Counted from the stretch's first letter, positions 18,659 to 35,165 are shown. The stretch: DNA of 64,000 nt from Nitrospira sp. (GCA_029194675.1 JARFXP010000001.1:496001-560000); one strand, 5' to 3'. The notes: generated by a model not told the origin, from the letters alone. Made by a program: numbers and translations.

Positions 18659-19235
18659 GTGAGACCTCCGTCGTAATGCCCAAAGATAGAAATTTAACTA
18701 GACAGTAGAAATCATAGCTGAGACCGCGTTTGCTGAATAGATTTTTCTGCCCTCTCAACTGGGCAGTGAGGGGAAAGTGTGTGAGAGGAGGCCACCGGTC
18801 TACCCAATGTTTTTACGCCATCAGATCGAGCGTGAGTACGAAATGGCTTGTTCCGTGCGCACCGTTCAAAAAACGTGAGACCATCCCGACCTGCATCAGG
18901 ATGGCCTCATGACTGTACGATTCGCTGAAAAGTAGACGGATCAGAAGAAGGACGAGAAGAACCAGGAGGAGCCATCGAGCATCTTCTTGTTCATTCTTGA
19001 TCTTTTCGAAGGTTCAACCCTTCACACTGTACACTTTCAGTTCTCGACCAACCACTCAAAGCACCTAAAAATCAAACCTATCGACCATTTCCTCTTGGCA
19101 TCGCTCTTGCTGCGTCACTATTTGTATAGGAACACTAATAGTTTGGTTTCGCTCTCTGTTTTGTACAGTGATCGCCATCAGGCACAAATTTAATACACCA
19201 TAGATCATCACCAATTCACCTAGAGGAGTGTCTCT
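18659..19235. other. 577-bp intergenic region with leader of the first duplicated module
   Basis: No supported gene. The left part (18659-18960) is the divergent upstream region of the small membrane gene. From about 18964 the sequence is homologous to 20670 onwards and carries the sigma-54-type promoter at 19096-19110 and a leader of about 113 bases ending in gaggag before ATG 19236. Confidence 0.6.
19096..19110 (+). promoter_or_regulatory. Sigma-54 (-24/-12) promoter, module copy 1
   Basis: The 15-mer tggcatcgctcttgc matches the consensus TGGCAY-N5-TTGC at every fixed position, with GG and GC twelve bases apart. Transcription would begin near 19122, about 113 bases before the lipoprotein ATG. 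The same element at the same distance is kept in copy 2 although surrounding bases have changed. The PrsR-type activator encoded at 23141-24535 is the obvious candidate partner. Confidence 0.75.
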
Positions 19236-19796
19236 ATGTCGCCGGTGAAGACGTTGGCCAGCGTTGTCATTCGGAAACTGAGCTTCTCGATGGCTCAGCT
19301 GATACTTGTCATTCCCCTACTTATGCCACTGGCTGGTTGCACAAATGATGGAGCGGGAGGACCGATAATTTCGAGCCTTTCTAAGCCAACCGACGATGCA
19401 GCAGGATTGGACTCGGACCAAGCCACTAATCCCGAGGCGGCAGATTTTGATGGAGAAGAAGATCCCACGATTACGATGACTCCGACACCAACGGGAGTGA
19501 CCGCGCATGTGACTTGGGATCGTCCCTCTGACTTCAAAGCAACTGGTTACTCCATCCACTATGGGAAACGCTCATCCGAAGAACCACGATCAGAAGAATC
19601 AGGTTCAGAAGAGTTAAGTTCAGAGGAGCCAAATTCATGCGCTCACGGGGAAAGCCAAACCGTCGAGGCTCCACCTGCCACGATCACCGGGCTTGAACCC
19701 AACACACCATATTTTTTCGCGATCCGTGCGTTCAATGAGTCGGAGAGTACCTGCTCGAACGAGATCACGGCAGTGACGCCTTCGACTCAATCTTAA
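19236..19796 (+). CDS. Lipoprotein with FN3-like domain and pentapeptide repeats (copy 1)
   Basis: 186 residues. A lipoprotein signal (LILVIPLLMPLAGC, lipobox LAGC) is followed by a Gly/Asp-rich linker and one fibronectin-III-like domain: TPTGVTAHVTWDRPSDF ... TGYSIHYGKR ... ATITGLEPNTPYFFAIRAFN ... SNEITAVTP. Between two strands of that domain a loop of four SEE-containing pentapeptides is inserted (19575-19634), very acidic. Predicted anchored in a membrane with the domain exposed. A sigma-54-type promoter lies upstream and GAGGAG precedes the ATG. The next gene also carries an FN3 domain; the pair is duplicated downstream. Role unknown, perhaps matrix or cell-surface binding. Confidence 0.8.
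   Translation: MSPVKTLASVVIRKLSFSMAQLILVIPLLMPLAGCTNDGAGGPIISSLSKPTDDAAGLDSDQATNPEAADFDGEEDPTITMTPTPTGVTAHVTWDRPSDFKATGYSIHYGKRSSEEPRSEESGSEELSSEEPNSCAHGESQTVEAPPATITGLEPNTPYFFAIRAFNESESTCSNEITAVTPSTQS
19575..19634 (+). repeat. 15-bp coding repeat, 4 copies (SEE pentapeptides)
   Basis: Four head-to-tail 15-base units encode S-E-E-x-x pentapeptides in frame. The paralogous gene has six units at exactly the same offset (339 bases from its ATG), so copy number has changed between paralogues. Confidence 0.8.
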
Positions 19797-19848
19797 GCGG
19801 GAGACTCCTTAGTGCAACATCTCTCACCGAGGAAAGGCTAGGACACTG

Positions 19849-20547
19849 ATGAGGCACTTCATTATAGAACATACCCACCACACGGCACGGCGGCTTCGCG
19901 GTAACGAAAACCCTTTGGCCGCAACTTGGTTCTGGCAGGTTCTAGGGGTCACGACGTTCTTCTGTCTTTGGTTCACCTCTGAGGGTTTAGCGGCTACGAC
20001 TATTAGCCCGACATCGTTGACCTATTATGCTGTGCAGGGTGCGACCAACCCACCGAACCAGACGATATCCGTCTCCAGGACTAGTTCTACACAAGCGACG
20101 CTCACGGCCTCAGACAACGCAACCTGGCTTTCGGTATCCCCGGCTACAACATCCATGACCAGAAGTGCGACGCTCACGGTCGCTGTCAATACGAATGGTC
20201 TCGCAGCAGGGACCTACCAAGCCACCATCACCATCAAGAGGGGCACCTGGTACACTATGACAGCCCCTGTGACGTTGATTGTATCGCCCGCAACTCAGCC
20301 ACCACCATCAACCACGTCCTCGGCCACCCTCACGTGGGACGCGGTCACCGGCACCCCAATCAGCGGCTACAAAGTCTACGTTGGGGAGTCCCCCCGCCTC
20401 TATACACGAACTATTGACGTGGGCACCGTCACCTCCTCGACCGTGAATAGTTTGACCGTGGGCCGGACGTACTATTTCGCCGTCACAGCATATAACAGTG
20501 CTGGCGAGAGCGCCCAGTCTAACGAGGTGAGTAAGAGCATCGATTGA
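19849..20547 (+). CDS. Secreted BACON-like + FN3 protein (copy 1)
   Basis: 232 residues. A long N terminus leads to a hydrophobic signal (VLGVTTFFCLWFTSEGLA-A). A BACON/Ig-like domain follows: ISPTSLTYYAVQGATNPPNQ, then TISVSRTSS, TASDNATWLSVSP, LAAGTYQATITI. After a Pro/Ser/Thr linker comes an FN3 domain (ATLTWDAVTGTPISGYKVYV ... GRTYYFAVTAYNSAGES). The combination suggests an extracellular carbohydrate- or matrix-binding protein; no enzyme motif or PEP-CTERM tail is present. It lies 52 bases after the lipoprotein gene and probably shares its promoter. Confidence 0.8.
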   Translation: MRHFIIEHTHHTARRLRGNENPLAATWFWQVLGVTTFFCLWFTSEGLAATTISPTSLTYYAVQGATNPPNQTISVSRTSSTQATLTASDNATWLSVSPATTSMTRSATLTVAVNTNGLAAGTYQATITIKRGTWYTMTAPVTLIVSPATQPPPSTTSSATLTWDAVTGTPISGYKVYVGESPRLYTRTIDVGTVTSSTVNSLTVGRTYYFAVTAYNSAGESAQSNEVSKSID

Positions 20548-20936
20548 TCACCAGAATGATCTCCAGGGAGCGAGGACATACCTCCTTCATGGCTGAGTGG
20601 GACCCTGCTCTACAGTAGCAACCTACACCATCTTGTTGATCGTCATCGTGGTGCAGGGCGAGGAGAACTAAGAGGAACCATCGAGCATTTTCTTATCCTG
20701 AGCTTTCTGAAGGTTAAGCCCTTCACAGTCTACACTTTCAATTCTCGACGAACCACTCAAGCCACTCAAAAATCAAAGCCGTCAGTTATATTCCTCTTGG
20801 CATCGCTTTTGCTGTACCACTCTTCGCCTAGAGAAACGACCACTATGGTGGTGCTCTCTGTATTGTAGTGATCACCACTAGGTACGAGTTTAATACGATC
20901 ATAGCTCTATACCAATTCATTTAGAGGAGTGTACCT
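20548..20936. other. 389-bp intergenic region with leader of the second module
   Basis: No supported gene. The first ~120 bases are unique; from about 20670 the sequence repeats 18964-19235 with substitutions and small indels and contains the second sigma-54-type promoter (20798-20812). No clear terminator separates the two modules. Confidence 0.6.
20798..20812 (+). promoter_or_regulatory. Sigma-54 (-24/-12) promoter, module copy 2
   Basis: tggcatcgcttttgc matches TGGCAY-N5-TTGC fully; only one spacer base differs from copy 1. The inferred start near 20824 gives a leader of about 113 bases before ATG 20937, the same as in copy 1. Confidence 0.75.
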
Positions 20937-21527
20937 ATGTTGACGATTGAGGATTCGGTTCGCTTTGTCTCTCGGAGACCGAACATCTCGATGGCCCATC
21001 TGATACTTGTTAGTTTCCTACTCATGCCACTGGCTGGTTGTGCAGATGATGGAGGGGGAGGACCGATGGTTTCTAGCCTTTCTACGCCAACGGACGCTAC
21101 GGCAGGATCGGACTCGGATCAAGCTCCTCATTCCGCAGCGGCAGATTCTGGCGGTGAAGACGACCCGATGATTACCATGACTCCGACTCCAACCGGAGTG
21201 ACCGCGCATGTGACTTGGGATCGCCCCTCTGACTTCGAAGCGACTGGTTACTACATTTACTATGGAAAACGTTCACCAGAAGAACTACGGTCAAAGGAGT
21301 CAAGTTCAGAAGAACCAAGCTCAGAAGAATCTAGCTCGGAAGAGTCAAGCCCAGAAGAACCAACTTCATGTTCTCGCGGGGAAAGCCAACCCGTCGAGGG
21401 TCCACCCGTCACGATCACCGGGCTTGAACCCAACACACCATATTTTTTTGCGATCCGCGCGGTCAACGACTCTGAGAGCATTTGCTCGAACGAGATCACG
21501 ATGGTAACGCCTCCGGTTGAATCTTAA
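20937..21527 (+). CDS. Lipoprotein with FN3-like domain and pentapeptide repeats (copy 2)
   Basis: 196 residues, paralogue of the gene at 19236. It keeps the lipobox (LLMPLAGC), the FN3 strands (VTAHVTWDRPSDFEATGYY and ITGLEPNTPYFFAIRAVN) and the two Cys that flank the repeat and the last strand. Its acidic insert has six SEE-type pentapeptides instead of four (21276-21365), which explains the extra ten residues. The start is supported by GAGGAG. It stands first in the second copy of the module under its own sigma-54-type promoter. Confidence 0.8.
   Translation: MLTIEDSVRFVSRRPNISMAHLILVSFLLMPLAGCADDGGGGPMVSSLSTPTDATAGSDSDQAPHSAAADSGGEDDPMITMTPTPTGVTAHVTWDRPSDFEATGYYIYYGKRSPEELRSKESSSEEPSSEESSSEESSPEEPTSCSRGESQPVEGPPVTITGLEPNTPYFFAIRAVNDSESICSNEITMVTPPVES
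21276..21365 (+). repeat. 15-bp coding repeat, 6 copies (SEE pentapeptides)
   Basis: Six in-frame 15-base units encode P/S-E/K-E-x-x pentapeptides. They start at the same codon offset as the four-unit tract of the paralogue, so this is a length-variable coding tract, not a CRISPR or regulatory repeat. Confidence 0.8.
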
Positions 21528-21774
21528 GAGTACACATCTTTTGCCTGAAGGAGACTACGTGATCCAGGAGCCCTTCTCCTGCGACAAGAGAATTGAACCG
21601 TGCGAGGAACTGAACTTTTTCACAGCCCATCACACACAGAATCCTGTGATGCCTCATTCCGCTGCAGAGGGTTGGTGGTCCATCAAGCCATCTCAACTGA
21701 GGTGACCTGCGACTTGTCCAGGGGCTGTGACAGACGAACATCCATAGTGAAACGTCCATCATCGAAGAAAGGCC

Positions 21775-22482
21775 ATGACACTGATGCGACACTTCTTACC
21801 GACACACATCACCCAAACGGCTCGGTCTCATCGTACGCCTACGTCCACACCTCGGTTCTGGCAGATGCTTGGAATCACGGCGTTCCTCTGCCTGAGCCTC
21901 GCTCCTGAGGGCTTGGCGCAAACGACTGTTAGCCCGACATCGCTGACCTATAATGCGGTGCAAAACGGAACAAACCCAGCCAACCAGACGATATCCGTCT
22001 CCCGGACCCGCACTAGTACAGTTACGCTCACGACCTCAGACAATGCGACCTGGCTGACGGTGTTGAATGCACCAACATCCATGACAACAAAAGCGACGCT
22101 CACGGTGGGTGTCAATACAAGTGGGCTCAAAATGGCGGGCACCTATAACGCCACCATCACGATCAAGGTGGGCACCTGGTACACGAAGACAGTCCCGGTG
22201 ACGTTGTATCTATCCCCCTCTCTCACGTCCACCACGCCACCGCCATCAACCACGTCCTCGGCGACCCTCACATGGAATGCGGTCACCAGCACACCGGTCA
22301 GCGGCTATAAAGTCTGGTTCGGCACGATATCCAACCAACTCCAATCCATTAACGTAGGCGCCGTCACATCCTACACTGTGAACAGTTTGACCGTGGGCCG
22401 CATGTACTATTTCGCCGTCTCGGCCTATAACAGTGCTGGCGAGAGCCCCCTCTCTACCCAGGCCAGCAAAACCATCCAATGA
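21775..22482 (+). CDS. Secreted BACON-like + FN3 protein (copy 2)
   Basis: 235 residues, paralogue of the gene at 19849. Signal region LGITAFLCLSLAPEGLA-Q, BACON-like domain (VSPTSLTYNAVQNGTNPANQ ... SDNATWLTVLN ... AGTYNATITIKVG), Ser/Thr/Pro linker, then FN3 (ATLTWNAVTSTPVSGYKVWF ... GRMYYFAVSAYNSAGES). No anchor or sorting signal, so probably released or held by binding. The spacer 21528-21774 before it holds no supported gene and lengthens this copy. A hairpin terminator follows the stop. Confidence 0.8.
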   Translation: MTLMRHFLPTHITQTARSHRTPTSTPRFWQMLGITAFLCLSLAPEGLAQTTVSPTSLTYNAVQNGTNPANQTISVSRTRTSTVTLTTSDNATWLTVLNAPTSMTTKATLTVGVNTSGLKMAGTYNATITIKVGTWYTKTVPVTLYLSPSLTSTTPPPSTTSSATLTWNAVTSTPVSGYKVWFGTISNQLQSINVGAVTSYTVNSLTVGRMYYFAVSAYNSAGESPLSTQASKTIQ

Positions 22483-22580: not shown

Positions 22581-22883
22581 TTAGTTTTTCCGTGAAGTCC
22601 GCTTCCAAATTCCAAGCCCAGCTAACCCAGCGCCCAGCAGGATCAAGGATGCTGGTTCAGGAACGGCCTTGCACCTTAGGCAAGGGCTAGGTATGGGTGT
22701 AGGTCCAGGTATAGGTCTACGTCGAGCAAGGTTGGTGCTGTCAGTAGTAACGCTAATGCTTTGACTTGTAATGCTGATGCTACTGGTCGTTTGGGCCATC
22801 GCAAGATTCCCTGAGAAGCCGAGAATAATTAGGACGGCTCCCAAGAGAATAGAGTGAATCGACCTACCCTCTTTCTTCATCAT
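22581..22883 (-). CDS. Small PEP-CTERM sorting-domain protein
   Basis: About 100 residues. A Sec signal (SILLGAVLIILGFSGNLAMA-Q) is followed by a Ser/Thr-rich segment, a Pro-rich hinge with a CLRC pair, and a C-terminal sorting signal: VPEPAS, a hydrophobic helix (LILLGAGLAGLGIW) and the basic tail KRTSRKN. This is the substrate type of exosortase, which is encoded about 3 kb upstream on the same strand. The mature exported part is only about 50 residues. GGGAGG lies six bases before the ATG at 22883, which decides the start. A possible sigma-54 element sits 53-67 bases upstream of the start. Confidence 0.85.
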   Translation of the reverse strand: MMKKEGRSIHSILLGAVLIILGFSGNLAMAQTTSSISITSQSISVTTDSTNLARRRPIPGPTPIPSPCLRCKAVPEPASLILLGAGLAGLGIWKRTSRKN

Positions 22884-22935
22884 TGCCATCCTCCCAGTTA
22901 CACACCGATATCCTCGCACTGTAGCCTTAGCTTAC

Positions 22936-22950
22936 GCATAACTTGTGCTA
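22936..22950 (-). promoter_or_regulatory. Weak sigma-54-like promoter of the PEP-CTERM gene
   Basis: Read on the minus strand tagcacaagttatgc keeps the -12 GC and most of the -24 box with correct 12-base phasing, but has TAG instead of TGG and ATGC instead of TTGC. The start would be near 22925, about 42 bases before the ATG. The rest of 22951-23140 is an AT-rich stretch that could hold activator sites. Confidence 0.4.
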
Positions 22951-23140
22951 GCTGAATGTTCATCATAAGCGACTGAAAGTATTGCGGCTGTCTGTAGGCT
23001 TCTTCATTCACAAAGCACAGGTTGTAAAAAAACATTACATTACTTTTCTCAACAACGTAGAAATGAAAATTTATTTCAATGTTTTCAATGGTTCATGAAA
23101 TACATACGTTGTAAAATAAATTTGCACACCAGGGGTTACT

Positions 23141-24535
23141 TTATGCACCTCTTTCTTCTAATTTATCGGCAAATTTTGATGCTCTTAACCCATACCGAGA
23201 GAGCAACTGGTAGAGGGTGGGACGGCTGATCCCCAAGTCAACAGCTGCTTTGGATAGATTGCCATTGGCTTTTTCCAGTACCAACTGCACCAGCTCCTTT
23301 TCCCGAAGGTCACGGGCGCCTCGGAGTGTCGTGGAACCACTGTCAATGAGGGGGAGATTTTTCAATTCCAAATTCTCGGGGCTGACGTATTTCCCTTCCG
23401 CCATCACAACCGCCCGTTTGACCCTATTTTCCAATTCTCGGACATTGCCAGGCCAATTGTGCGCCAGCAACGTTTCGATAGCTTGTGGTGTAAACCCTCT
23501 CAGCACTTTTTGTTGTTCTTCCGCAAACTTCATCAAGAACGTTTTCGCGAGGAGAGTAATATCAGACCCCCGTGCCTTCAGGCTAGGTACGGAAAGAGCC
23601 ACCACACAAAGCCGATAAAACAAATCTTCCCTGAATCGACCACTGTTGATAGCTTCTTGCAGATCAACATTCGTCGCAGCAAGAATCCTGACATTGACGG
23701 AGACCCCATCCTTTCCTCCCAACCGATGGACCTCATGATCTTGCAAAAACCGCAACAACTTGACCTGCAGGCTGAGCGGAACATCTCCGATTTCATCCAG
23801 GAAAAGTGTGCCGGCTTGCGCGGATTCGATTCGGCCTTTTCGTTGCTGGACGGCCCCGGTAAATGCTCCCTTCTCATACCCGAACAGCTCGCTCTCCAAT
23901 AGTGTCTCTGGGATCGCTGCGCAGTTGATGGTGATAAAGGGCGCCTCTTTCCGCCCGCTCAGTCGGTGAATCGCACGAGCCACGAGTTCTTTCCCCGTCC
24001 CGCTCTCGCCGGTGATGAGGACCGGCACGTCGGACGGTCCGACGCGGCGAATCATGCCGAACACGTCTTGCATAGGCTTGCTGTTCCCCACAAGACCGTC
24101 AATTCCAATGCCGACGGTCCTGTCCTGAATGGCTCGACTCTCCCGCTCCAAGTTAAAGAGGTACGTCGCCCGCTGCAACACCACCTTCAATACATCGAGC
24201 TGTACCGGCTTCTCAAGAATGTCATACGCGCCACTTTCCATAGCGACAAAGGCTTTCGCTCGATCGCTGTTGCCTATGACAACGATCACCTTCGCCCCAG
24301 GATTCAGTCGAAGGGTCTCCTGCAGAATTACCAACCGTTCGGAGACCTCGTCTGCCTGGGGGGGCAGCCCCCAATCCAGCATTACCAGCGACGGCATGGC
24401 CTGGCGAATCTGTGATAGTGCAACCGCGCGATCCGATGCCTCAAGGATCTCGTAATCCGGCGCGAGCGCCCATTTGATTTTGTTGCGAAGATCGGCATCA
24501 TCGCCGACAAGGAGTAAGATAGGATAGGTTGTCAT
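23141..24535 (-). CDS. prsR: PrsR-type sigma-54-dependent response regulator (PEP-CTERM system)
   Basis: 464 residues, NtrC-like. Receiver domain 1-125 with the acidic pair in LLVGDDAD, phospho-acceptor Asp in VMLDWGLP and Lys in LEKP; the usual switch Thr is replaced (VIVVIGNSD). The AAA+ domain has Walker A GESGTGKE, the sigma-54 loop FTGA in EKGAFTGA, Walker [10 protein letters not shown] and the arginine-rich [12 protein letters not shown] region. The Fis-type HTH is at the C terminus ([20 protein letters not shown]). Family members sit in exosortase/exopolysaccharide loci and switch on sigma-54 promoters; several such promoters are seen nearby. The cognate kinase PrsK is not in the window. 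Confidence 0.9.
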
Positions 24536-24625: not shown

Positions 24626-25762
24626 TCAGCCGACATGCCGATACATAAGCCGACCCACCGAAACCAGCATTCTGTTAGGAATGCAGGCACAAATGGTTTT
24701 CCCTAGATGCACCTTCAGACGTTCCAAGTGGGGAGACACCTCACCGGCAGGACCGCGCCACAGAGTGAGCCGCCTACTGTGTGCTCCCCAACGTTCCTTG
24801 AACCTGATCAGTCCTCGGTGATCGAGTTCCGACCGACCCAAATCGAGCTCTTCCATCCCTGCCGCTTTCGCTGCTTGGATGGCCTGCCAGAAAAGCATCG
24901 GGGTCGCCCCCAGATTGTTATACCGGGCATCGGAGCCGCCGTACTTGTAATACATCTTCTTGCGATGATTCATGGTCAAGATTCCTGCGACGGGTTGGTT
25001 TCCCTTGAACGCAACACGAATACAAACATCTTTTCCCATACAGGCAACGAGATTCAGGAACCATTCGAACGGCTGCGGCGGAAGATGCTTACGCAATCTC
25101 GACAGCACGATGAGATCATAGAATGACCGCACCAGGGGTTCGCTTCGGCCCTCCTCATACCTCAGTGCTTGGCGTTCCGCGTGACGGATTCTCCGTCTAA
25201 TACAATTTTTATGGAATCCCTCATATAACGCATCAAGGCTGGGCCGAAGGTCGAGTCGATGCCATCGATAGACTTGACATTCTCTAAGGCCCTCCTCGAC
25301 GCCGAGGAAGGCGCCGCTGGTTCGCATTTCTGTATACTTCCATCGATTTGTTCCTCGGACTGTTGCGAGATGAGTACAGAGCGCTCCGAGTTGCTCGCTG
25401 TTTTCGACAAGCGGTTCGCAGTGGTCCGTGAAGGGCAGCGAAACCAGCCGGTCGCGCGTCACCAGACTTCGCACGATGCAAAACAGGAGAGCGTTCGTCA
25501 GCTTCTCAGATGGCGCAGAGGTCGTAAAAGCGACCGGCTCATACCCATAGGTAGTGCGCAACGCACTCAGCCAGCCGATCGTATGGAAGACGGACGAGTT
25601 CGGATGTCTATCGACAAATTCGGACCACCGATCATCTCGAAGAGGGTTTATCGTCCAAACACCATCCTGTGCCAAGCCCATCGCATCCTCTCGCGCGATC
25701 GAAGCTGGCCCAAAGCATGTGGCCTCGGTATGCTGATCAGGCTTGAGCACAAGACCCATCAT
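24626..25762 (-). CDS. FemAB-related GNAT-fold protein of the exosortase locus
   Basis: 378 residues of the FemAB/peptidoglycan-bridge-like acyltransferase superfamily that recurs in exosortase/exopolysaccharide clusters. Visible features: SSVFHTIGWLSALRTTYGYE at the start of the fold, an Arg-rich region (NCIRRRIRHAERQ), VAFKGNQPVAGILTMNHRKK and YYKYGGSDARYNNLGATPML, the hallmark of the second GNAT subdomain. The acyl donor and acceptor are unknown. ATG 25762 overlaps the exosortase stop codon by four bases, so the genes are coupled. The same frame stays open up to 26269, but that part is antisense-type noise inside the exosortase gene. Confidence 0.85.
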   Translation of the reverse strand: MMGLVLKPDQHTEATCFGPASIAREDAMGLAQDGVWTINPLRDDRWSEFVDRHPNSSVFHTIGWLSALRTTYGYEPVAFTTSAPSEKLTNALLFCIVRSLVTRDRLVSLPFTDHCEPLVENSEQLGALCTHLATVRGTNRWKYTEMRTSGAFLGVEEGLRECQVYRWHRLDLRPSLDALYEGFHKNCIRRRIRHAERQALRYEEGRSEPLVRSFYDLIVLSRLRKHLPPQPFEWFLNLVACMGKDVCIRVAFKGNQPVAGILTMNHRKKMYYKYGGSDARYNNLGATPMLFWQAIQAAKAAGMEELDLGRSELDHRGLIRFKERWGAHSRRLTLWRGPAGEVSPHLERLKVHLGKTICACIPNRMLVSVGRLMYRHVG

Positions 25763-26727
25763 GAGGCATACCCGAACCGCTGTTCTATCTTGCGTAGCAG
25801 CCAGACAACGGAAAAGAGCACCGCGAGCGAAAGGACAAAGAAGGGAATGCCGCCATTCCGGTGGAGAGCGCTGTCCGTAATGAAGCTGGGGTCGACATAA
25901 TTCGCGAGCAGTGACAATCCGACGATCCGCACGGCGTTCTTCACGATCGTCAACGGAATAACGATCGACACAAGTCCCATTTTCCCCCAAGTCGATCGGA
26001 GAATCAGATGGCCAGCCGCGAGACTGGTAATGAATAACGCGAGAGCAGATCGGATGCCGCTGCATTCTTCTGCTATATAAATCGTGAAGTCCGACAGGCT
26101 GAACACAAACCCCTCTCGAAAGACAGGAACGCCGAGTATAGAGAACAGGACATCGGTTGCTTCCGCCGAGCCATGCTGCAAGAAGCCGATAACCGCATCC
26201 AGAAGAACAGTTGGGAACGGAACCATGAAGAGGAGCATCACCAGCGAAAACAAGTTCGTTCGAAAGCACTCAGCCCCAAAACTGAAGAGAAACAGGCCCC
26301 AGCACATCACGACAAAGGCTAAAATCAGCACAGCTAATCGATCCGGTGTCTCCTCTTGTCCATCGGCAAGCCGGTAGCAGACCGCAGCACCGGTCATGAC
26401 CAACGCGCCGACCATCGGACTCCATGCGTGGGAAGTCAGTATGACGGTTCGGCTCAAGAACAGCAGATAGCAAGTCAGCGCCGGGATCAACAACACGTGG
26501 GAAAAATGCTCATTTCCCAAGGCAAGAGCGACGAGCTTCACGAGCGGCGCCCAAAACCACGCACACACACCGACGAACAATAGAAGAACAAGGACGTTCC
26601 GCCGACCAGGTCGCCACGGCAGGGCGTGGTTCACCAGCCCAAGACCGGTGCGGCCTACCGACGAAGCCGCTTCATCCAAACCGGTTCCGCTTTTGTCCGA
26701 ATGCGGCCCCCTCACGAGCGTTTGCAT
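25759..26727 (-). CDS. Exosortase (PEP-CTERM transpeptidase-like membrane protease)
   Basis: 322 residues with about eight membrane helices. The three catalytic positions are visible: Cys222 in AEECSGIRS, Arg267 in KNAVRIVG and His289 in LHRNGG. The enzyme cleaves PEP-CTERM tails at the inner membrane and probably links the protein to a surface polymer or lipid. The C-terminal EpsI-like (DUF3485) domain of many exosortases is absent. A PEP-CTERM protein, PrsR and FemAB genes adjoin it, as is normal for the XrtA type, but the subtype is not certain from sequence alone. The N-terminal 35 residues are hydrophilic and possibly over-annotated. Confidence 0.92.
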   Translation of the reverse strand: MQTLVRGPHSDKSGTGLDEAASSVGRTGLGLVNHALPWRPGRRNVLVLLLFVGVCAWFWAPLVKLVALALGNEHFSHVLLIPALTCYLLFLSRTVILTSHAWSPMVGALVMTGAAVCYRLADGQEETPDRLAVLILAFVVMCWGLFLFSFGAECFRTNLFSLVMLLFMVPFPTVLLDAVIGFLQHGSAEATDVLFSILGVPVFREGFVFSLSDFTIYIAEECSGIRSALALFITSLAAGHLILRSTWGKMGLVSIVIPLTIVKNAVRIVGLSLLANYVDPSFITDSALHRNGGIPFFVLSLAVLFSVVWLLRKIEQRFGYAS

Positions 26728-28955: not shown

Positions 28956-29534
28956 CTAGTCTGTGGAACGAGGAGACGGAGCAGAATGGTCGGCTGCATT
29001 GAATACTGCGAGATCACTCTGCTCCAGCACACGTATCTGAAGAGAGTGGTCATCCGTGAAATTCGGGACACCGTGTAAACGGTCTATCAAACGGGTCCTC
29101 AGATTGTCGTACCCATCTCTGGAAGAATCCGGTCGTAGAGCCGTCATCAAGACCCCCACGATCCGGCCTTGTCGATACCACCCGATGTAATCGGTGTCAC
29201 GGCAACTGCTGGACAATACCGAGAGAGTCTTCTCGGCAAGCTCGGATCCGAAAGGCACGACTCGTCCTTGTGCGTTGGTGCGGTAGACGAGCAAGATCCG
29301 GCACAGATGGCCCGATCGCTCAGAACGCTTGGATTCTCGCTGGACGAGGTCGCGATATGCCGTTTCAGAATAGACGTTTGCGGAAGAAGTAGATTTCTTG
29401 CTCTTGGTCAGGCCAAGCAAGTAAGAGCGTATATCCCGCCACCGAATTGCTAAATGCATGAGCAGGTTGTGAAACGGAAGGGATGATCCCTCCCTAGAGT
29501 AAGGCCCTTGGGCGACTAGTTTCCTAGCGATCAC
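28956..29534 (-). CDS. Stand-alone degenerate GGDEF-like domain protein
   Basis: About 192 residues. Its core matches the N-terminal domain of the sugar transferase at 26774: QRESKRSERSGHLCRILLVY against QERKRADRSGSSMAMLLVSL, then DTDYIGWYRQGRIVGVLMTA against ELDILGWFEPPCVMGLIVPE. The catalytic GGDEF is RQGR(I), so no cyclase activity is expected. There is no membrane segment. The start is uncertain: GTG 29534 has no ribosome site and ATG 29459 is possible. The gene lies between the Gfo/Idh oxidoreductase and the deacetylase in the same direction. It may be a regulatory partner of the sugar transferase; this is inference. Confidence 0.7.
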   Translation of the reverse strand: MIARKLVAQGPYSREGSSLPFHNLLMHLAIRWRDIRSYLLGLTKSKKSTSSANVYSETAYRDLVQRESKRSERSGHLCRILLVYRTNAQGRVVPFGSELAEKTLSVLSSSCRDTDYIGWYRQGRIVGVLMTALRPDSSRDGYDNLRTRLIDRLHGVPNFTDDHSLQIRVLEQSDLAVFNAADHSAPSPRSTD

Positions 29535-29635
29535 AATAGTGCGAAGATCAGCTCATAAGACAATGAACGAGAGGGAGCGTCGATGCATCGGTCGCATGGT
29601 CGGCAATGCCTGGTAGGGGACACTCAGCAGAGAAA

Positions 29636-30598
29636 TTATGTGACGCTCTCGTCGTCGGGCCTGCGATCGAAAGTGAGCGTACCGTGAACTAGTCGCGGCT
29701 TAATCTGCGCGGCAAATGCTGCCACCTCTCGTGGAAGGGCATACCAACAGGCATCGCCATAGCGGGTGATAACGTACTTGAGAAGACGTTCATACAGATC
29801 GACCTGATATTCCGAGGAGCTCGGTTTTCCATTAAAAGAAATGTAGTCCGGATGGACGACCGCCAAAACCATCCCACCATGCGAAGCCACCCAATCAAGC
29901 TTCTTCGTCCACAGGTCGATCGTCGTTTCCTTCAAGAGCACGAACAACGTGGAATCCTGCGGAAGCGTATAAGGGAGTTCGACGTAGCCCTTCGAGCCGT
30001 TGCGCTGAACCCAGAACGGGAAAATCGTCCCGACTCCATCCGGTTGCGGCTCGAATGGATCGGTATCAAATGTCGAGGTATCGTAGAGCAGATCGAGCGC
30101 GTGAAGCCAATCGAGGTTATGGAACATGTAGCCAGACCGGAAACCTGATGCTCCCCACACTTTAAGATAGTGATTGATTCTCTGAGCTTGCTTTTCAAAG
30201 TGCCGCGACGAGCGATACAGCGACCCATCGTGAGACAGATCATGGACACCGATTTCAAAGCCCTCCCGTTCAAGGTCCGCTCGAAGCGAGTCCGGCACAC
30301 GGTACTCGCCCTCTGGAACGAAATTGAAAGACGCGCGGATGCCCAAGGCCTGGTCGAGCTCTGCCAGCTTCCGGCACCGTGCTAATCCCCGCGCACCTTC
30401 GACATCATGCGTGATCACAAATGCAAACTTCTTCCCGTTCGGCCACCCGGGCCAGCCCTCCGGCGGCCGAGCTGCAGACGGCAAAATAGGCCAGGAATCA
30501 CTGAACTGCCTCCCTAAACGATTCGCAATCAGGCGACGTACTCGTATTCTAATGGCCCAGGGGATAGCCGGCTTCAGAAAATAGTATATGTTCGTCAT
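29636..30598 (-). CDS. Polysaccharide deacetylase-like (NodB-fold) protein
   Basis: About 320 residues. NodB-like features: the first strand FAFVITHDVEG carries the catalytic-type His-Asp, IGVHDLSHDG holds the His-x-x-x-His metal pair, and FRSGYMF carries the substrate-binding Arg; a late VVHPDYIS supplies the last His. It would remove acetyl groups from the exopolysaccharide, in the periplasm or at the membrane. No clear signal peptide is seen. ATG 30598 is chosen because conserved-looking sequence starts there; an ATG at 30700 adds a basic, low-complexity leader, and neither start has a strong ribosome site. Confidence 0.82.
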   Translation of the reverse strand: MTNIYYFLKPAIPWAIRIRVRRLIANRLGRQFSDSWPILPSAARPPEGWPGWPNGKKFAFVITHDVEGARGLARCRKLAELDQALGIRASFNFVPEGEYRVPDSLRADLEREGFEIGVHDLSHDGSLYRSSRHFEKQAQRINHYLKVWGASGFRSGYMFHNLDWLHALDLLYDTSTFDTDPFEPQPDGVGTIFPFWVQRNGSKGYVELPYTLPQDSTLFVLLKETTIDLWTKKLDWVASHGGMVLAVVHPDYISFNGKPSSSEYQVDLYERLLKYVITRYGDACWYALPREVAAFAAQIKPRLVHGTLTFDRRPDDESVT

Positions 30599-31254
30599 AC
30601 GCGATGTGGTCTTACTTCGTTTTCTTCCCACAGGTCCACTATGGCGAACCGCACGCCCCCTCGCTTTGTCCCTCTGAAACGTGGAGCCCAAACCATTCAT
30701 ATGCCTATGCTTCTTGATCAGTCCGCTTATTCCGCTTATGAGGAGCCCCTTTCATAGACAGCTACAGAAGACGTTCTGAGCCGCCGTCGATTCGTACATG
30801 AGGAATGCTGACGACTAGAACCACCCGACATATGACCAGCCATCACCAGGTCAGCTTCCAAGCTTCACAACGATACCAACGAATGTCGTCAAAACAACGC
30901 CCTTGAGCTAATATGGCGTGTCTCAATTGTGGTGACTTATGACCCGTTGAACCATTCCCTGTCCCTTTATTGTAGGTGTCTCCCTACACGATTGAACGAT
31001 CATGGTATCACCTTCAACCAGCGCTATATATTGCCTACCGTTAAGAAACCACATTATCTTTCATTAGGTTAATAACGCAGGTAGCAATCTTAAATGCTCC
31101 ATTGAAAACAGGCATCTGTTTTGCGTATCTGCAAGGGAAGATGTTATGGTGCTAAGCCAGTCAGAGAAATCTTCACTGGGTTATCTACCATCCAGCTATG
31201 CAACATGGCTTCTCAAACATAGGATCTGTTTAGCACAACGACAGGGGTAAAACT
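30599..31254. other. Intergenic region upstream of the beta-helix gene
   Basis: Up to 656 bases without a supported gene (555 if the deacetylase starts at 30700). It contains the divergent upstream region of the deacetylase, an AT-rich stretch around 31010-31110 and the sigma-54-type promoter at 31110-31124. No hairpin terminator or RNA gene was recognised. Confidence 0.55.
31110..31124 (+). promoter_or_regulatory. Sigma-54 (-24/-12) promoter of the beta-helix gene
   Basis: aggcatctgttttgc matches GGCAY-N5-TTGC, with only the first base off the TGGCAY consensus and correct 12-base phasing. The start near 31135 gives a leader of about 120 bases before ATG 31255, close to the spacing seen at the two lipoprotein modules. 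Confidence 0.65.
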
Positions 31255-32481
31255 ATGAAACGCTACTGTATTAAGATATTCATTGTCTGTGCAATTCTTT
31301 TGGGAACGTCTGAACTGGCCAATGCGGCATGTACTCAAACCCTCAGCCCTGGTGCAGCCCTCGCATCGGCCATTTCATCGGCAGCCGCAGGGTCAACGAT
31401 CTGCTTGAATTCCGGGAACTATGGGACGGTGATGCTGGGATCGTTTACCAAAAGTCCACCCGTGATTGTTCAATCTGTCACAGCCCAGGGCGCCTCGATG
31501 GGGTTAACAGCGCAGAATGGGGCCAATGGCGTGACGTTTGACAGTATTAACTTTAGCAGTGGCGGTGCCACGATTTCGAACAGCTCCACGAAAAACATCA
31601 CGATCAAAAATAGTGCATTTGGCACGAGTCAGCTTGTGATTGTGACCACCAACTTCAACAACAATAACATTCTCATCGACCACAATACGTTCGGAGCGTA
31701 CAACTCGACGGGGTATGAAGGGCGGCTCACGATAACCTGGGGAGCAGGCGCACCAGGGCCCACGCCATCCGGCGTGACCGTCACGAACAATACCTTTGGC
31801 CCTGGCGGGTGCTCCGATGGTATTCAGATTGGTGCGAAGAGCGTAATGATAGGCCCTGGAAATGTCTTCACCGGAATGGTGCAAGGTAGTTGTTCTGCGC
31901 ACGTCGATGCCATACAGGGATACGGGCAAGGCTCGACAAGCATCAACGGCAACTACTTCACTGGCAACACCATCAATATCGGCTTCTACGACGGAGGATC
32001 CTCCGAAACAATCACCAACAACGTGTTTGGCCCGCCAGCTACAGTGGCTCAGAATATCCAGCTCGGGGGCGTCGTGGGCATGACGCTTGCTCACAATACA
32101 TTCCGTAACACGATTGTGGCCTACGGGTCCAAAGCGGGGAATTCCCCCAATTCTGGATGGATCATACAAAACAATGTCCTCGTGAATAGTGACCTGATTG
32201 CCTCGGGGGATCAGCCAGGCTGTGGCGCGAACTGCATCGTGCGCTACAACCTTGTGGATGCACAAAGCAGTATTGCCCCAACTGGAACCAACATCGTCTC
32301 TGGTACTCCGACCTTCGTTGGCGGCAACCCGCCCACGACATGGGCGGGTTATCAATTAGCTGGAAGCTCTCTCGGATCGAAAGCAGGCAATGACGGACAG
32401 GACATGGGAGCCAACTATTTTGTTGGCTCCACCTCCGGCACACAGGCGCCTGTCGCGCCCACTAACTTGAAGGTGCAGTGA
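31255..32481 (+). CDS. Secreted right-handed parallel beta-helix protein
   Basis: 408 residues. Signal peptide FIVCAILLGTSELANA-A; then short repeating turns rich in Asn, Gly, Thr and Val (NITIKNSAF, NNILIDHNTF, VTVTNNTF, ETITNNVF, MTLAHNTF), the ladder of a pectate-lyase-like beta helix. Three Cys pairs may brace the helix. Members bind or cleave polysaccharide; no catalytic set was identified, so lyase activity is only possible. It ends with APTNLKVQ, which looks like the beginning of a lost FN3 domain. It is alone on the plus strand under a sigma-54-type promoter, next to the exopolysaccharide genes. Confidence 0.82.
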   Translation: MKRYCIKIFIVCAILLGTSELANAACTQTLSPGAALASAISSAAAGSTICLNSGNYGTVMLGSFTKSPPVIVQSVTAQGASMGLTAQNGANGVTFDSINFSSGGATISNSSTKNITIKNSAFGTSQLVIVTTNFNNNNILIDHNTFGAYNSTGYEGRLTITWGAGAPGPTPSGVTVTNNTFGPGGCSDGIQIGAKSVMIGPGNVFTGMVQGSCSAHVDAIQGYGQGSTSINGNYFTGNTINIGFYDGGSSETITNNVFGPPATVAQNIQLGGVVGMTLAHNTFRNTIVAYGSKAGNSPNSGWIIQNNVLVNSDLIASGDQPGCGANCIVRYNLVDAQSSIAPTGTNIVSGTPTFVGGNPPTTWAGYQLAGSSLGSKAGNDGQDMGANYFVGSTSGTQAPVAPTNLKVQ

Positions 32482-32580
32482 GCACATAGAGCGGGTGCGC
32501 AATCTCATATTCATCCCGCCCCGATCACCGACGGGACGCAACAATAACTTCGGCAAGTCGCGTGCCATATTGGCAGGACG

Positions 32581-32690
32581 ACGTCGGCGTCGGACACGCC
32601 AGGCCTTAAGACTCTTTACGCCAAGATCGGCCAACTGGCACTTTAATGGGACAACTGCCTACTGCGAATTGAGATGGGAATTTCCCATTT
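32581..32690 (+). pseudogene. IS3-family OrfA remnant (C-terminal fragment)
   Basis: A plus-strand frame reads PGLKTLYAKIGQLAL and then a stop. YAKIGQL is the characteristic end of IS3-type OrfA proteins, where it is followed by an NDFL motif that is degraded here. No start, HTH or inverted repeat is present. The 32482-32703 spacer between the beta-helix gene and the methyltransferase holds nothing else supported. Confidence 0.5.
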
Positions 32691-32703
32691 CACTCAGCAT
32701 CGA

Positions 32704-33696
32704 TCATAACGAATCGGCATCCACCCGCGATAAGATTAGGTCGATTTGATCCACCGGCTCATCAGGCCATTGGGTTATCCGTTGAGGCGGACTCTGCATG
32801 TTTCGTAGAATACAAGTGGATGCCAAATAATCGTTCCGGATTCGATAGCCTTGAAAGCCAAACACTGCGAAAACGGACAGGATGTCTTCGAGGGTCTTCC
32901 CTTGGCCCGCCATCATGCTCCTCGATATCTCTATGACGATTTCCAATTTCTCATCCGTCTGTGCAAGCCATGATGTCATTTCAGAAATGATGCGCGATTC
33001 GGCACCCTCGACATCTATTTTTATCAACCGGGCCGTTTTGATTTCTTCCGGTGTCAAAATGACTGCCAATGGCCTGGCTTCGATTTCCAGTTGCTCCCTC
33101 AATTGCCACTGGTTAGCCCATTCAAACATGAGGGTTGTAGCGCCGGAGGGTCTGCCTTGACGAGAAAAAATCTTTAGTTTCTCTGATTTATCCCAGGCGG
33201 CCATATTTACCGTACACACATTGTACACGCCGTTCCGCTTAAGATTGCGCTCGAGATTTCGGTAGGTCTGAGGCAGAGCCTCAATCGCCACCACTTTCCC
33301 TGAAACTCCCACCAGTTTTGATGCCAGGAGGCTGAAATAGCCGATATTGGCTCCTACATCTATAAATAAGTCACCGGGACGCAAACGACGCTCAATCCAA
33401 CGCGTCAAGATCGGCTCCCAGACACCGAGATAGTAAATGTGCTTCCCGATGATGTCGCTCGCATCAACTTCCAGCGTGCTCCCAAATACTGTGGTCCCAG
33501 ACACCTTGCCTTCAAGCCACCACAGATGATCAGCAACCGAGTTGTAGAGAAACACTTTCCCCAGAGACCACGGCCCGAAGCGAATACATGCTCTTAGTGG
33601 ACGAATGATAAGAAACCTCATAACCGTCCTTAGGAACGGTGGAAAGGACTGAAGCGTGTCCTTTACAATAGAATTTTTATAGACCATGCTTGTCAC
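32704..33696 (-). CDS. FkbM-family methyltransferase
   Basis: 330 residues. SAM-binding motif GDLFIDVGANIGYFSLLAS, post-I acidic residue in VVAIEALPQTYRNL, and the FkbM hallmark ARLIKIDVEGAESRII. Such enzymes O-methylate sugars in polysaccharides and glycolipids. It is the most downstream gene of the minus-strand glycosyltransferase series and would modify the polymer or its precursor. The base composition is more AT-rich than in the left arm, as in the following genes. Confidence 0.88.
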   Translation of the reverse strand: MTSMVYKNSIVKDTLQSFPPFLRTVMRFLIIRPLRACIRFGPWSLGKVFLYNSVADHLWWLEGKVSGTTVFGSTLEVDASDIIGKHIYYLGVWEPILTRWIERRLRPGDLFIDVGANIGYFSLLASKLVGVSGKVVAIEALPQTYRNLERNLKRNGVYNVCTVNMAAWDKSEKLKIFSRQGRPSGATTLMFEWANQWQLREQLEIEARPLAVILTPEEIKTARLIKIDVEGAESRIISEMTSWLAQTDEKLEIVIEISRSMMAGQGKTLEDILSVFAVFGFQGYRIRNDYLASTCILRNMQSPPQRITQWPDEPVDQIDLILSRVDADSL

Positions 33697-33833
33697 TTTT
33701 CGGCATGAAGGATTCGGATATCTGATTAATCGGCTTACACAATCAAGAAGTGTCTATTCTGACTGCCAAAATATTATTACATAAAGAAAAGCGCTAAGGT
33801 CTAGGAACGCATGGAGTAGACTTCTTTAGTGAC

Positions 33834-35165
33834 ATGGAACAAGAAAGCACCATAACCGGCATCAGCCTTTTTATCACGTTGAGCATGGGTTTTCTCTGGT
33901 TTGCATTGCCGCGACGACACGCATTTGTTCCCATGCTAATAGCTGGTTGCTATATGTCACTGGCGCAGGCCCTGCTCATCTCGGGGCTCCATTTCAACAT
34001 CATCAGGATCCTAATATCTTTCGGTATGCTTAGGATCGTTGTCAGGAAGGAAATATTCGATATAAAACTGAATCCGATCGATAAGGTTTTCATCGCTTGG
34101 CTTACGGCCAGCAGTTTTATTTCTGTCATTTTTAATAGCGAAACTATAAATCTGACCGGTTGCCTTGGTACTGTTTACGATGGACTCGGGATTTACCTGA
34201 TCGTACGAGCTTTACTACGCGACTTAGATGACGTTATGCATAACGTAAAGATGCTCGGAATCATGATTATCCCCCTCGCCTTCCTTTTCATAATAGAGCA
34301 TATAACCGGGACAAACTATTTTTCATACTTGGGCGGAGTGCCCATACTCTCAGAGATTCGTAATGGACGTATCCGCTGTCAGGGCCCGTTCAAACATTCC
34401 ATCCTCGCAGGAACTTTTGGTGCGACCGCCTTACCTCTTTTTGTGGGGTTGATGGTTTGCAGTACCCGCAATCGTGCACTTGCAACAGGAGCGATTGTGG
34501 CAGCTACAGTCATCATTTTTGCCTCATCATCGAGTGGACCTTTCCTGGCTTTTCTTGCATGCATCGTCGGATTGACCTGTTGGCACTTCAGGGCTCATGT
34601 GAGAGCCATCCGGTGGGGAATCGCGATTTTCTTCGTGGCATTGCATATCTATATGAAGGATCCGGTATGGTTCGTGATAGCGCGTATCAGTGATCTACTC
34701 GGAGGAGGAGGATGGTATCGCTCGGCCTTGATTAATGCAGCCGTCGTTCATTTTGACGAGTGGTGGCTCAGTGGGACAGCTTACACAAGACACTGGTTGC
34801 CGAGCGGTATTACAGGCAATCCTGATATGGTGGACATCGTGAACCACTATGTCGCTCAAGGGGTGAACGGCGGCCTTCTCGCGTTGGTTTTATTTATCTG
34901 GCTAATCGTCAAATGTTTTAAGGCCACCGGTTCGGCGGTTCATGATGAAACGCAATTTTCCTTTCCGGAGCGATTTTTTATCTGGTCCATGGGCTGTACC
35001 GTACTGGGTCATGTTGTATCTTTCTTTTCAGTGTCTTATTTTGATCAAATGATTCTCTTTTGGTACCTCATCATCGGTGCGAGTGCGGTCCTTGTCCAGA
35101 CAGGGACGGAGACGGTATATGAATATAGGGTCGGCCATACTACTTGTCAGCAGCAGGTGATTTAG
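33834..35165 (+). CDS. Wzy-like O-antigen/exopolysaccharide polymerase
   Basis: 443 residues with about eleven or twelve hydrophobic helices, a long periplasmic loop near residues 290-330 (VWFVIARISDLLGGGGWYRS, then HFDEWWLSGTAYTRHWLP), and no soluble domain. This layout is that of Wzy/O-antigen ligase proteins, which join lipid-linked repeat units in the inner membrane. Sequence identity in this family is always low, so ligase versus polymerase cannot be settled; the Wzx flippase and Wzz-like genes in the same locus favour polymerase. It is one of very few plus-strand genes in the locus. Confidence 0.78.
   Translation: MEQESTITGISLFITLSMGFLWFALPRRHAFVPMLIAGCYMSLAQALLISGLHFNIIRILISFGMLRIVVRKEIFDIKLNPIDKVFIAWLTASSFISVIFNSETINLTGCLGTVYDGLGIYLIVRALLRDLDDVMHNVKMLGIMIIPLAFLFIIEHITGTNYFSYLGGVPILSEIRNGRIRCQGPFKHSILAGTFGATALPLFVGLMVCSTRNRALATGAIVAATVIIFASSSSGPFLAFLACIVGLTCWHFRAHVRAIRWGIAIFFVALHIYMKDPVWFVIARISDLLGGGGWYRSALINAAVVHFDEWWLSGTAYTRHWLPSGITGNPDMVDIVNHYVAQGVNGGLLALVLFIWLIVKCFKATGSAVHDETQFSFPERFFIWSMGCTVLGHVVSFFSVSYFDQMILFWYLIIGASAVLVQTGTETVYEYRVGHTTCQQQVI

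Follow-up and report, generated by a model that had tools for sequence, protein, structure and literature searches.

The closest described counterparts of the locus reported here are the PEP-CTERM/EpsH system with its PrsK-PrsR-sigma-54 circuit (Haft et al. 2006, PMC1569441) and the PepA protein of Aquincola (PMC9850573), in which, as here, secreted surface proteins and sigma-54 promoters are found with EPS and exosortase genes nearby. The PrsR box, reported for Proteobacteria only, is 17 nt long, ends in TTTACA, is sometimes repeated, and lies ~63 nt (32-92) before the sigma-54 site (PMC1569441). Sigma-54 has also been described as a controller of the bacterial exterior (PMC3162934), and the available part of that paper has, like the present locus, sigma-54 promoters before exported envelope proteins; the Nitrospira module differs in that its upstream site and its set of genes are defined, and these appear neither in that part nor in the other papers found.

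Nitrospira are key nitrite oxidisers, and little is known of how their surface and matrix are controlled. The gene pair described below encodes an FN3 lipoprotein and a BACON-FN3 protein, and we found no paper on it in the open-access literature. It lies in a stretch of 64,000 nucleotides from Nitrospira sp. (GCA_029194675.1 JARFXP010000001.1:496001-560000), referred to as the window. The source genome is of Nitrospira type, and its named relatives include the Nitrospira MAGs LK70, WA-bin32, ACE_NIT12 and UBA2083. With its named genes and its predicted promoter and enhancer site, the module makes sigma-54 regulation of the surface directly testable.

A Lipoprotein/BACON-FN3 Gene Pair Is Present in Two Direct Copies

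Four open frames follow one another on the plus strand of the window, i.e., lipoprotein A (186 aa; 19236-19796), the secreted BACON-FN3 protein A (232 aa; 19849-20547), lipoprotein B (196 aa; 20937-21527) and the secreted BACON-FN3 protein B (235 aa; 21775-22482). A direct-repeat search (families D1-D12) placed them in two plus-strand repeat units, A (18949-20547) and B (20655-22482), each with promoter region, lipoprotein gene and BACON-FN3 gene (bac). A sequence-only reading of the same DNA had proposed that such a segment exists twice with full reading frames in both copies, and both points held, although the repeat begins ~15 nt 5' of the 18964 that it gave. The repeats are colinear, in blocks of 40-300 nt with 72-88% identity to the reference copy. 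Their offset is 1701-1706 across the promoter and lipoprotein gene and 1926-1938 across bac, a shift from ~1701 to ~1930 that arises because the gap between the two genes is longer by ~195 nt in copy B (247 nt) than in copy A (52 nt). As the repeats stay in the same register over hundreds of nucleotides, chance is excluded.

Both lipoproteins have the features of bacterial lipoproteins, i.e., an N-terminal hydrophobic segment and the lipobox PLAGC with its Cys, so that lipidation is predicted. In lipoprotein A these are followed by a disordered linker and one FN3 domain, which has a loop of SEE repeats (longer in lipoprotein B) and two conserved cysteines. The lipobox Cys35 is invariant in 25/25 homologues, as are the FN3 cysteines 135 and 173. 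FN3 (PF00041) scored above the Pfam gathering cut-off of 25 bits in all four proteins (29.8-39.8 bits), bearing out the proposal of a lipoprotein and a secreted partner that each carry FN3. The BACON assignment stood for copy A, where BACON_2 (PF19190) scored 29.1 bits, and fell below the same cut-off in copy B (18.5 bits). At the level of domains the pair resembles known fn3 proteins and, in copy A, BACON_2 proteins, but differs from them in its two-gene lipoprotein/secreted layout and its SEE-repeat loop. None of the four proteins matched an NCBIfam model, and a PEP-CTERM motif, sought with Pfam and NCBIfam models, was found in none of them; BACON-FN3 protein A lacks a C-terminal sorting signal. 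The suggestion of an undescribed surface or matrix system is consistent with the lack of an NCBIfam family; an exosortase subsystem is not supported, the pair bearing no PEP-CTERM signal.

Structure prediction, which had been proposed as a check, was run on the A copies. The AlphaFold2 model of lipoprotein A has a disordered linker and then an FN3 core (strands 78 to 180), mostly above 90 pLDDT, and that of BACON-FN3 protein A has confident BACON (~50-146) and FN3 (~156-231) domains. In lipoprotein A residues 116-129 are modelled as disordered; they belong to a low-confidence loop between strands 104-111 and 139-143 made up of SEE(P/S)-like repeats. These repeats are encoded by 15-nt units, and the insert, in those copies that allowed a measurement, has a length of mostly 18, 23, 28, 33 or 48 residues, i.e., it changes in steps of 5. 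Fold searches with the A-copy models returned generic Ig-like/FN3 folds only; the top match of the bac protein was a Vpr peptidase fibril (8jmw), which we do not take as functional evidence.

Relatives Suggest an Old Duplication and Rearranged Arrays

Between copies A and B the lipoproteins are 71% identical and the BACON-FN3 proteins 67%. By the NG86 method, as rough values, dS was ~0.40 for the lipoprotein genes and ~0.56 for bac, with dN/dS of ~0.42; the full range of dN/dS was 0.20-0.46. On these figures the duplication is old, and all four open frames are under purifying constraint.

Array members were found in 23 of 79 genomes of the genus (source genome included), which are mostly MAGs, with several array loci stopping at contig ends. 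These genomes carry one or two pairs, and some have an extra, solo BACON-FN3 gene. Units of both A type and B type also occur in Nitrospira sp. LK70, so that the tandem duplication proposed earlier stands as two full direct copies, but not as a fresh tandem event. In the bac tree the A-type genes of the source genome, LK70, G134 and G167 form one clade (support 99/99), the solo genes form another (100/100), and copy B is placed weakly. The A-type units of all four genomes share an intergenic gap of 52-54 nt. The array opens with the A unit in the source genome and LK70, but in G134 and G167 this unit is second. From this clade and the differing order we conclude that the two-pair state is older than the species and that the arrays have been rearranged; the duplication predates the lineage of the source genome. 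A recent duplication as the whole story is ruled out, given the supported clade that holds the copy A bac.

Across loci of the genus the neighbouring helicase genes are ~83-98% identical and the module proteins mostly 50-80%, which indicates that the module evolves fast. Some copies have decayed, i.e., G167 has a truncated bac remnant and in G146 the solo bac is split. This decay and the varying copy number would fit a tandem expansion, selfish or neutral, at the edge of an island prone to recombination, in which extra copies have no special role. We consider such an expansion quite unlikely, because frames and promoters are intact in both copies of the window, dN/dS lies below 0.5, and the A-type bac has been kept in four species.

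A Predicted Sigma-54 Promoter and an Upstream Palindrome Precede the Lipoprotein Genes

Scanning of the upstream regions identified a predicted sigma-54 -24/-12 promoter before both lipoprotein genes, TGGCATCGCTCTTGCT in copy A (19096-19111, plus strand) and TGGCATCGCTTTTGCT in copy B (20798-20813, plus strand). The proposal that each copy has its own promoter can therefore be refined to the sigma-54 type, which, with the palindrome TGAAGG-N6-CCTTCA that precedes it, goes beyond the earlier reading. The palindrome is a putative enhancer-binding site. It lies on the plus strand at 20708-20725 in copy B and at 19007-19024 in copy A, where it lacks the outermost T (GAAGG-N6-CCTTC), and it is conserved in relatives, ~70-85 nt 5' of the lipoprotein promoter. 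The element GGCA[CT]-N5-TTGC was present 5' of every array lipoprotein gene examined in relatives, as in both window copies.

A bac gene directly 3' of a lipoprotein gene generally has no sigma-54 element, and the pair is therefore read as a bicistronic unit. Where the 5' end of a solo BACON-FN3 gene is intact, the gene has its own sigma-54 element, and the sequence upstream of that element differs. When the whole 5.2-Mb genome was searched by pattern for palindrome plus promoter, there were 3 matches, all before FN3 lipoproteins (the third before a solitary paralogue on contig 2), and none with a reversed-pattern control. Genus-wide, 42 of 55 motif matches were followed by an FN3 lipoprotein match within 800 nt. 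The features of a sigma-54-dependent operon are thus present as sequence matches, i.e., a GG-N10-GC element, a putative activator site upstream of it, and rpoN, of which the genome has one. It also has several candidate enhancer-binding proteins; no activator gene conserved beside the lipoprotein loci was seen among the loci examined.

Most of the inspected matches that do not precede FN3 lipoproteins lie before small Lys/Glu-rich secreted peptides of ~70-86 aa, in other Nitrospira and in one other genus of the family (L110, L117, L127, L131, L133, L218). Read by eye, the motif also precedes outer-membrane-barrel-like proteins in another genus of the family (L237, L238). A loose scan of distant BACON-FN3 homologues from other genera often found sigma-54-like elements near their starts.

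The leader of copy B contains an inverted repeat (GGTGGT..ATCACCAC; 20844-20879, plus strand), which is kept in most relatives and degenerate in copy A. We rejected it as an RNA structure: 84% of the cells were paired, yet covariation did not exceed that of shuffled alignments, and the fold of copy B had a z of -0.73. There was no Rfam match for it. The repeat may be an operator, or it may be nothing.

The Adjacent PEP-CTERM Gene Has PrsR-Type Boxes That the FN3 Pair Lacks

The minus strand 3' of the array encodes a short PEP-CTERM protein (pepS; 22581-22889), PrsR, FemAB and a small exosortase, and EPS genes, glycosyltransferases among them, adjoin the array. The earlier placement of the pair beside an exosortase/EPS locus was therefore accurate. 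PrsR (23141-24535, minus strand), the PEP-CTERM-box response regulator and sigma-54 activator, matched TIGR02915 with 574 bits against a cut-off of 502.6. The small exosortase (25759-26727, minus strand) matched PF09721 with 151 bits; its best NCBIfam model was XrtC, below the cut-off of that model. A second exosortase lies in a 527-aa frame at ~739.6-740.4 kb on contig 2 of the source genome, and this size class is widespread in the genus. Within the EPS island (28956-35165), long frames at 28956, 29636, 31255 and 33834 had no Pfam match.

Upstream of pepS, on the minus strand, are a sigma-54-like element (TAGCACAAGTTATGCG; 22935-22950) and a 17-nt box (TGTAATGTTTTTTTACA; 23023-23039) that agrees with how the PrsR box is described in the published text, with a second copy further out (TGCAAATTTATTTTACA; 23110-23126). 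The likeness to the PEP-CTERM/EpsH system thus resides in pepS, i.e., in 17-nt boxes ending in TTTACA of which the nearer lies 72 nt before the -24/-12-like site. PrsR-type boxes were found for 7/7 pepS genes adjoining PrsR (window included) and for 0/4 without an adjacent PrsR, a weak partial match in L075 being left out of the latter count. The 17-nt box was not found before the FN3 pair, which has TGAAGG-N6-CCTTCA instead, and pepS is probably regulated separately from the pair. Since pepS is the sole PEP-CTERM gene above the cut-off in the genome, this appears to be a single-substrate PEP-CTERM system with PrsR-type boxes in a Nitrospira genome. Two sigma-54 circuits would accordingly lie side by side, one of PrsR type with a single PEP-CTERM substrate and one for the FN3 pair.

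The Exosortase Cluster Often Adjoins the Array but Is Dispensable

A rival reading makes the pair an accessory of the exosortase/PEP-CTERM system that PrsR would co-regulate and that would work with the pepS product, e.g., as its outer-membrane receptor, and several observations favour it. The 3' flank could be read at 16 loci. At 11 of these (window included) pepS follows the array at a distance of 0.1-3.6 kb; by inspection, the flanks of the other five have other contents, e.g., transposase-like genes in G134. The small exosortase is present in 14/23 array genomes against 3/56 others (Fisher p 3e-7, uncorrected for phylogeny), and in three genomes the pair occurs with pepS, FemAB and exosortase where the OMP neighbour was not found. 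In several relatives a related short FN3 lipoprotein lies inside the exosortase locus. However, the small exosortase is absent from nine of the 23 array genomes, and PrsR above the cut-off from eleven, one of them a single contig, with array and sigma-54 promoter kept. In that single-contig genome (G099) pair, palindrome and promoter are present, with no PrsR above the cut-off and no exosortase within ~1 Mb. PrsR is therefore ruled out as a necessary regulator of the pair. Together with the different upstream site and the lack of PEP-CTERM on the pair, these absences make an accessory role unlikely. The proposed linkage, when checked, was thus non-random but incomplete, and the array, though often accompanied by the exosortase cluster, can do without it; the OMP/helicase/glgC block is a stricter neighbour (16 loci). 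Unlike the PEP-CTERM/EpsH system, the FN3 pair is retained where PrsR and the small exosortase are missing, and the array is most likely a copy-variable, sigma-54-controlled surface/matrix module that accompanies the exosortase system yet is independent of it.

The short FN3 lipoprotein mentioned above is a third type with the same cysteine pair, and was seen near exosortase genes or beside the array (L070, L071, L072, L075, L077, L087). It was not found in the window.

A Possible Role at the Cell Surface

On balance, if only just, we think it probable that each copy is a bicistronic, sigma-54-controlled operon whose products form a cell-surface module. An enhancer-binding protein bound to TGAAGG-N6-CCTTCA would activate the -24/-12 promoter, from which sigma-54 RNA polymerase would transcribe both genes as a single message. 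The first product would be a lipoprotein, probably of the outer membrane by the E. coli rule, as no Asp follows the lipobox Cys, and its disordered linker would hold out a single FN3 domain, whose acidic loop varies; the second would be a BACON-FN3 protein with Sec-type secretion. Where the cell surface meets the exopolysaccharide, both proteins most likely serve in binding or as structural components, and species would differ in dose and variant because copies are gained, lost and rearranged. An FN3 fold does not by itself fix function. The lack of an enzyme domain, the lipoprotein and secretion signals, the variable copy number and the EPS neighbourhood nevertheless make a surface/matrix contact module the best reading, from which we infer location, partner binding and a matrix or adhesion role. 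The solo bac genes in arrays and the lone lipoprotein paralogue elsewhere in the genome count against strict coupling of the two genes.

The BACON domain received its name as a presumed binder of carbohydrates in proteins of Bacteroidetes. With EPS genes near, the pair might instead bind carbohydrate, BACON holding the glycan and the lipoprotein providing the anchor, for capture or retention in nutrition rather than for a matrix. This we regard as very unlikely: directly beside the array we recognised neither a glycoside hydrolase nor a transporter, the Nitrospira way of life is mainly chemolithoautotrophic, and BACON is not known to bind glycans in general.

Beyond the contact module itself, we suggest tentatively, as a possibility rather than an expectation, an undescribed Nitrospira sigma-54 regulon with the TGAAGG-N6-CCTTCA enhancer and its own activator, parallel to the PrsR-driven, single-substrate exosortase system. 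It would comprise small, fast-evolving FN3 surface lipoproteins, BACON-FN3 partners and charged secreted peptides, and the acidic, minisatellite-coded loop together with copy number would yield species-specific surface variants for floc or matrix contacts.

A further BACON-FN3 paralogue lies at ~748 kb on contig 1 of the source genome (L092:7964-9067); it has a sigma-54-like site, and its BACON-like repeat occurs twice. The paralogue adjoins pilin-like (GFTLIEL) genes, and an enhancer-binding regulator is encoded ~3.6 kb away.
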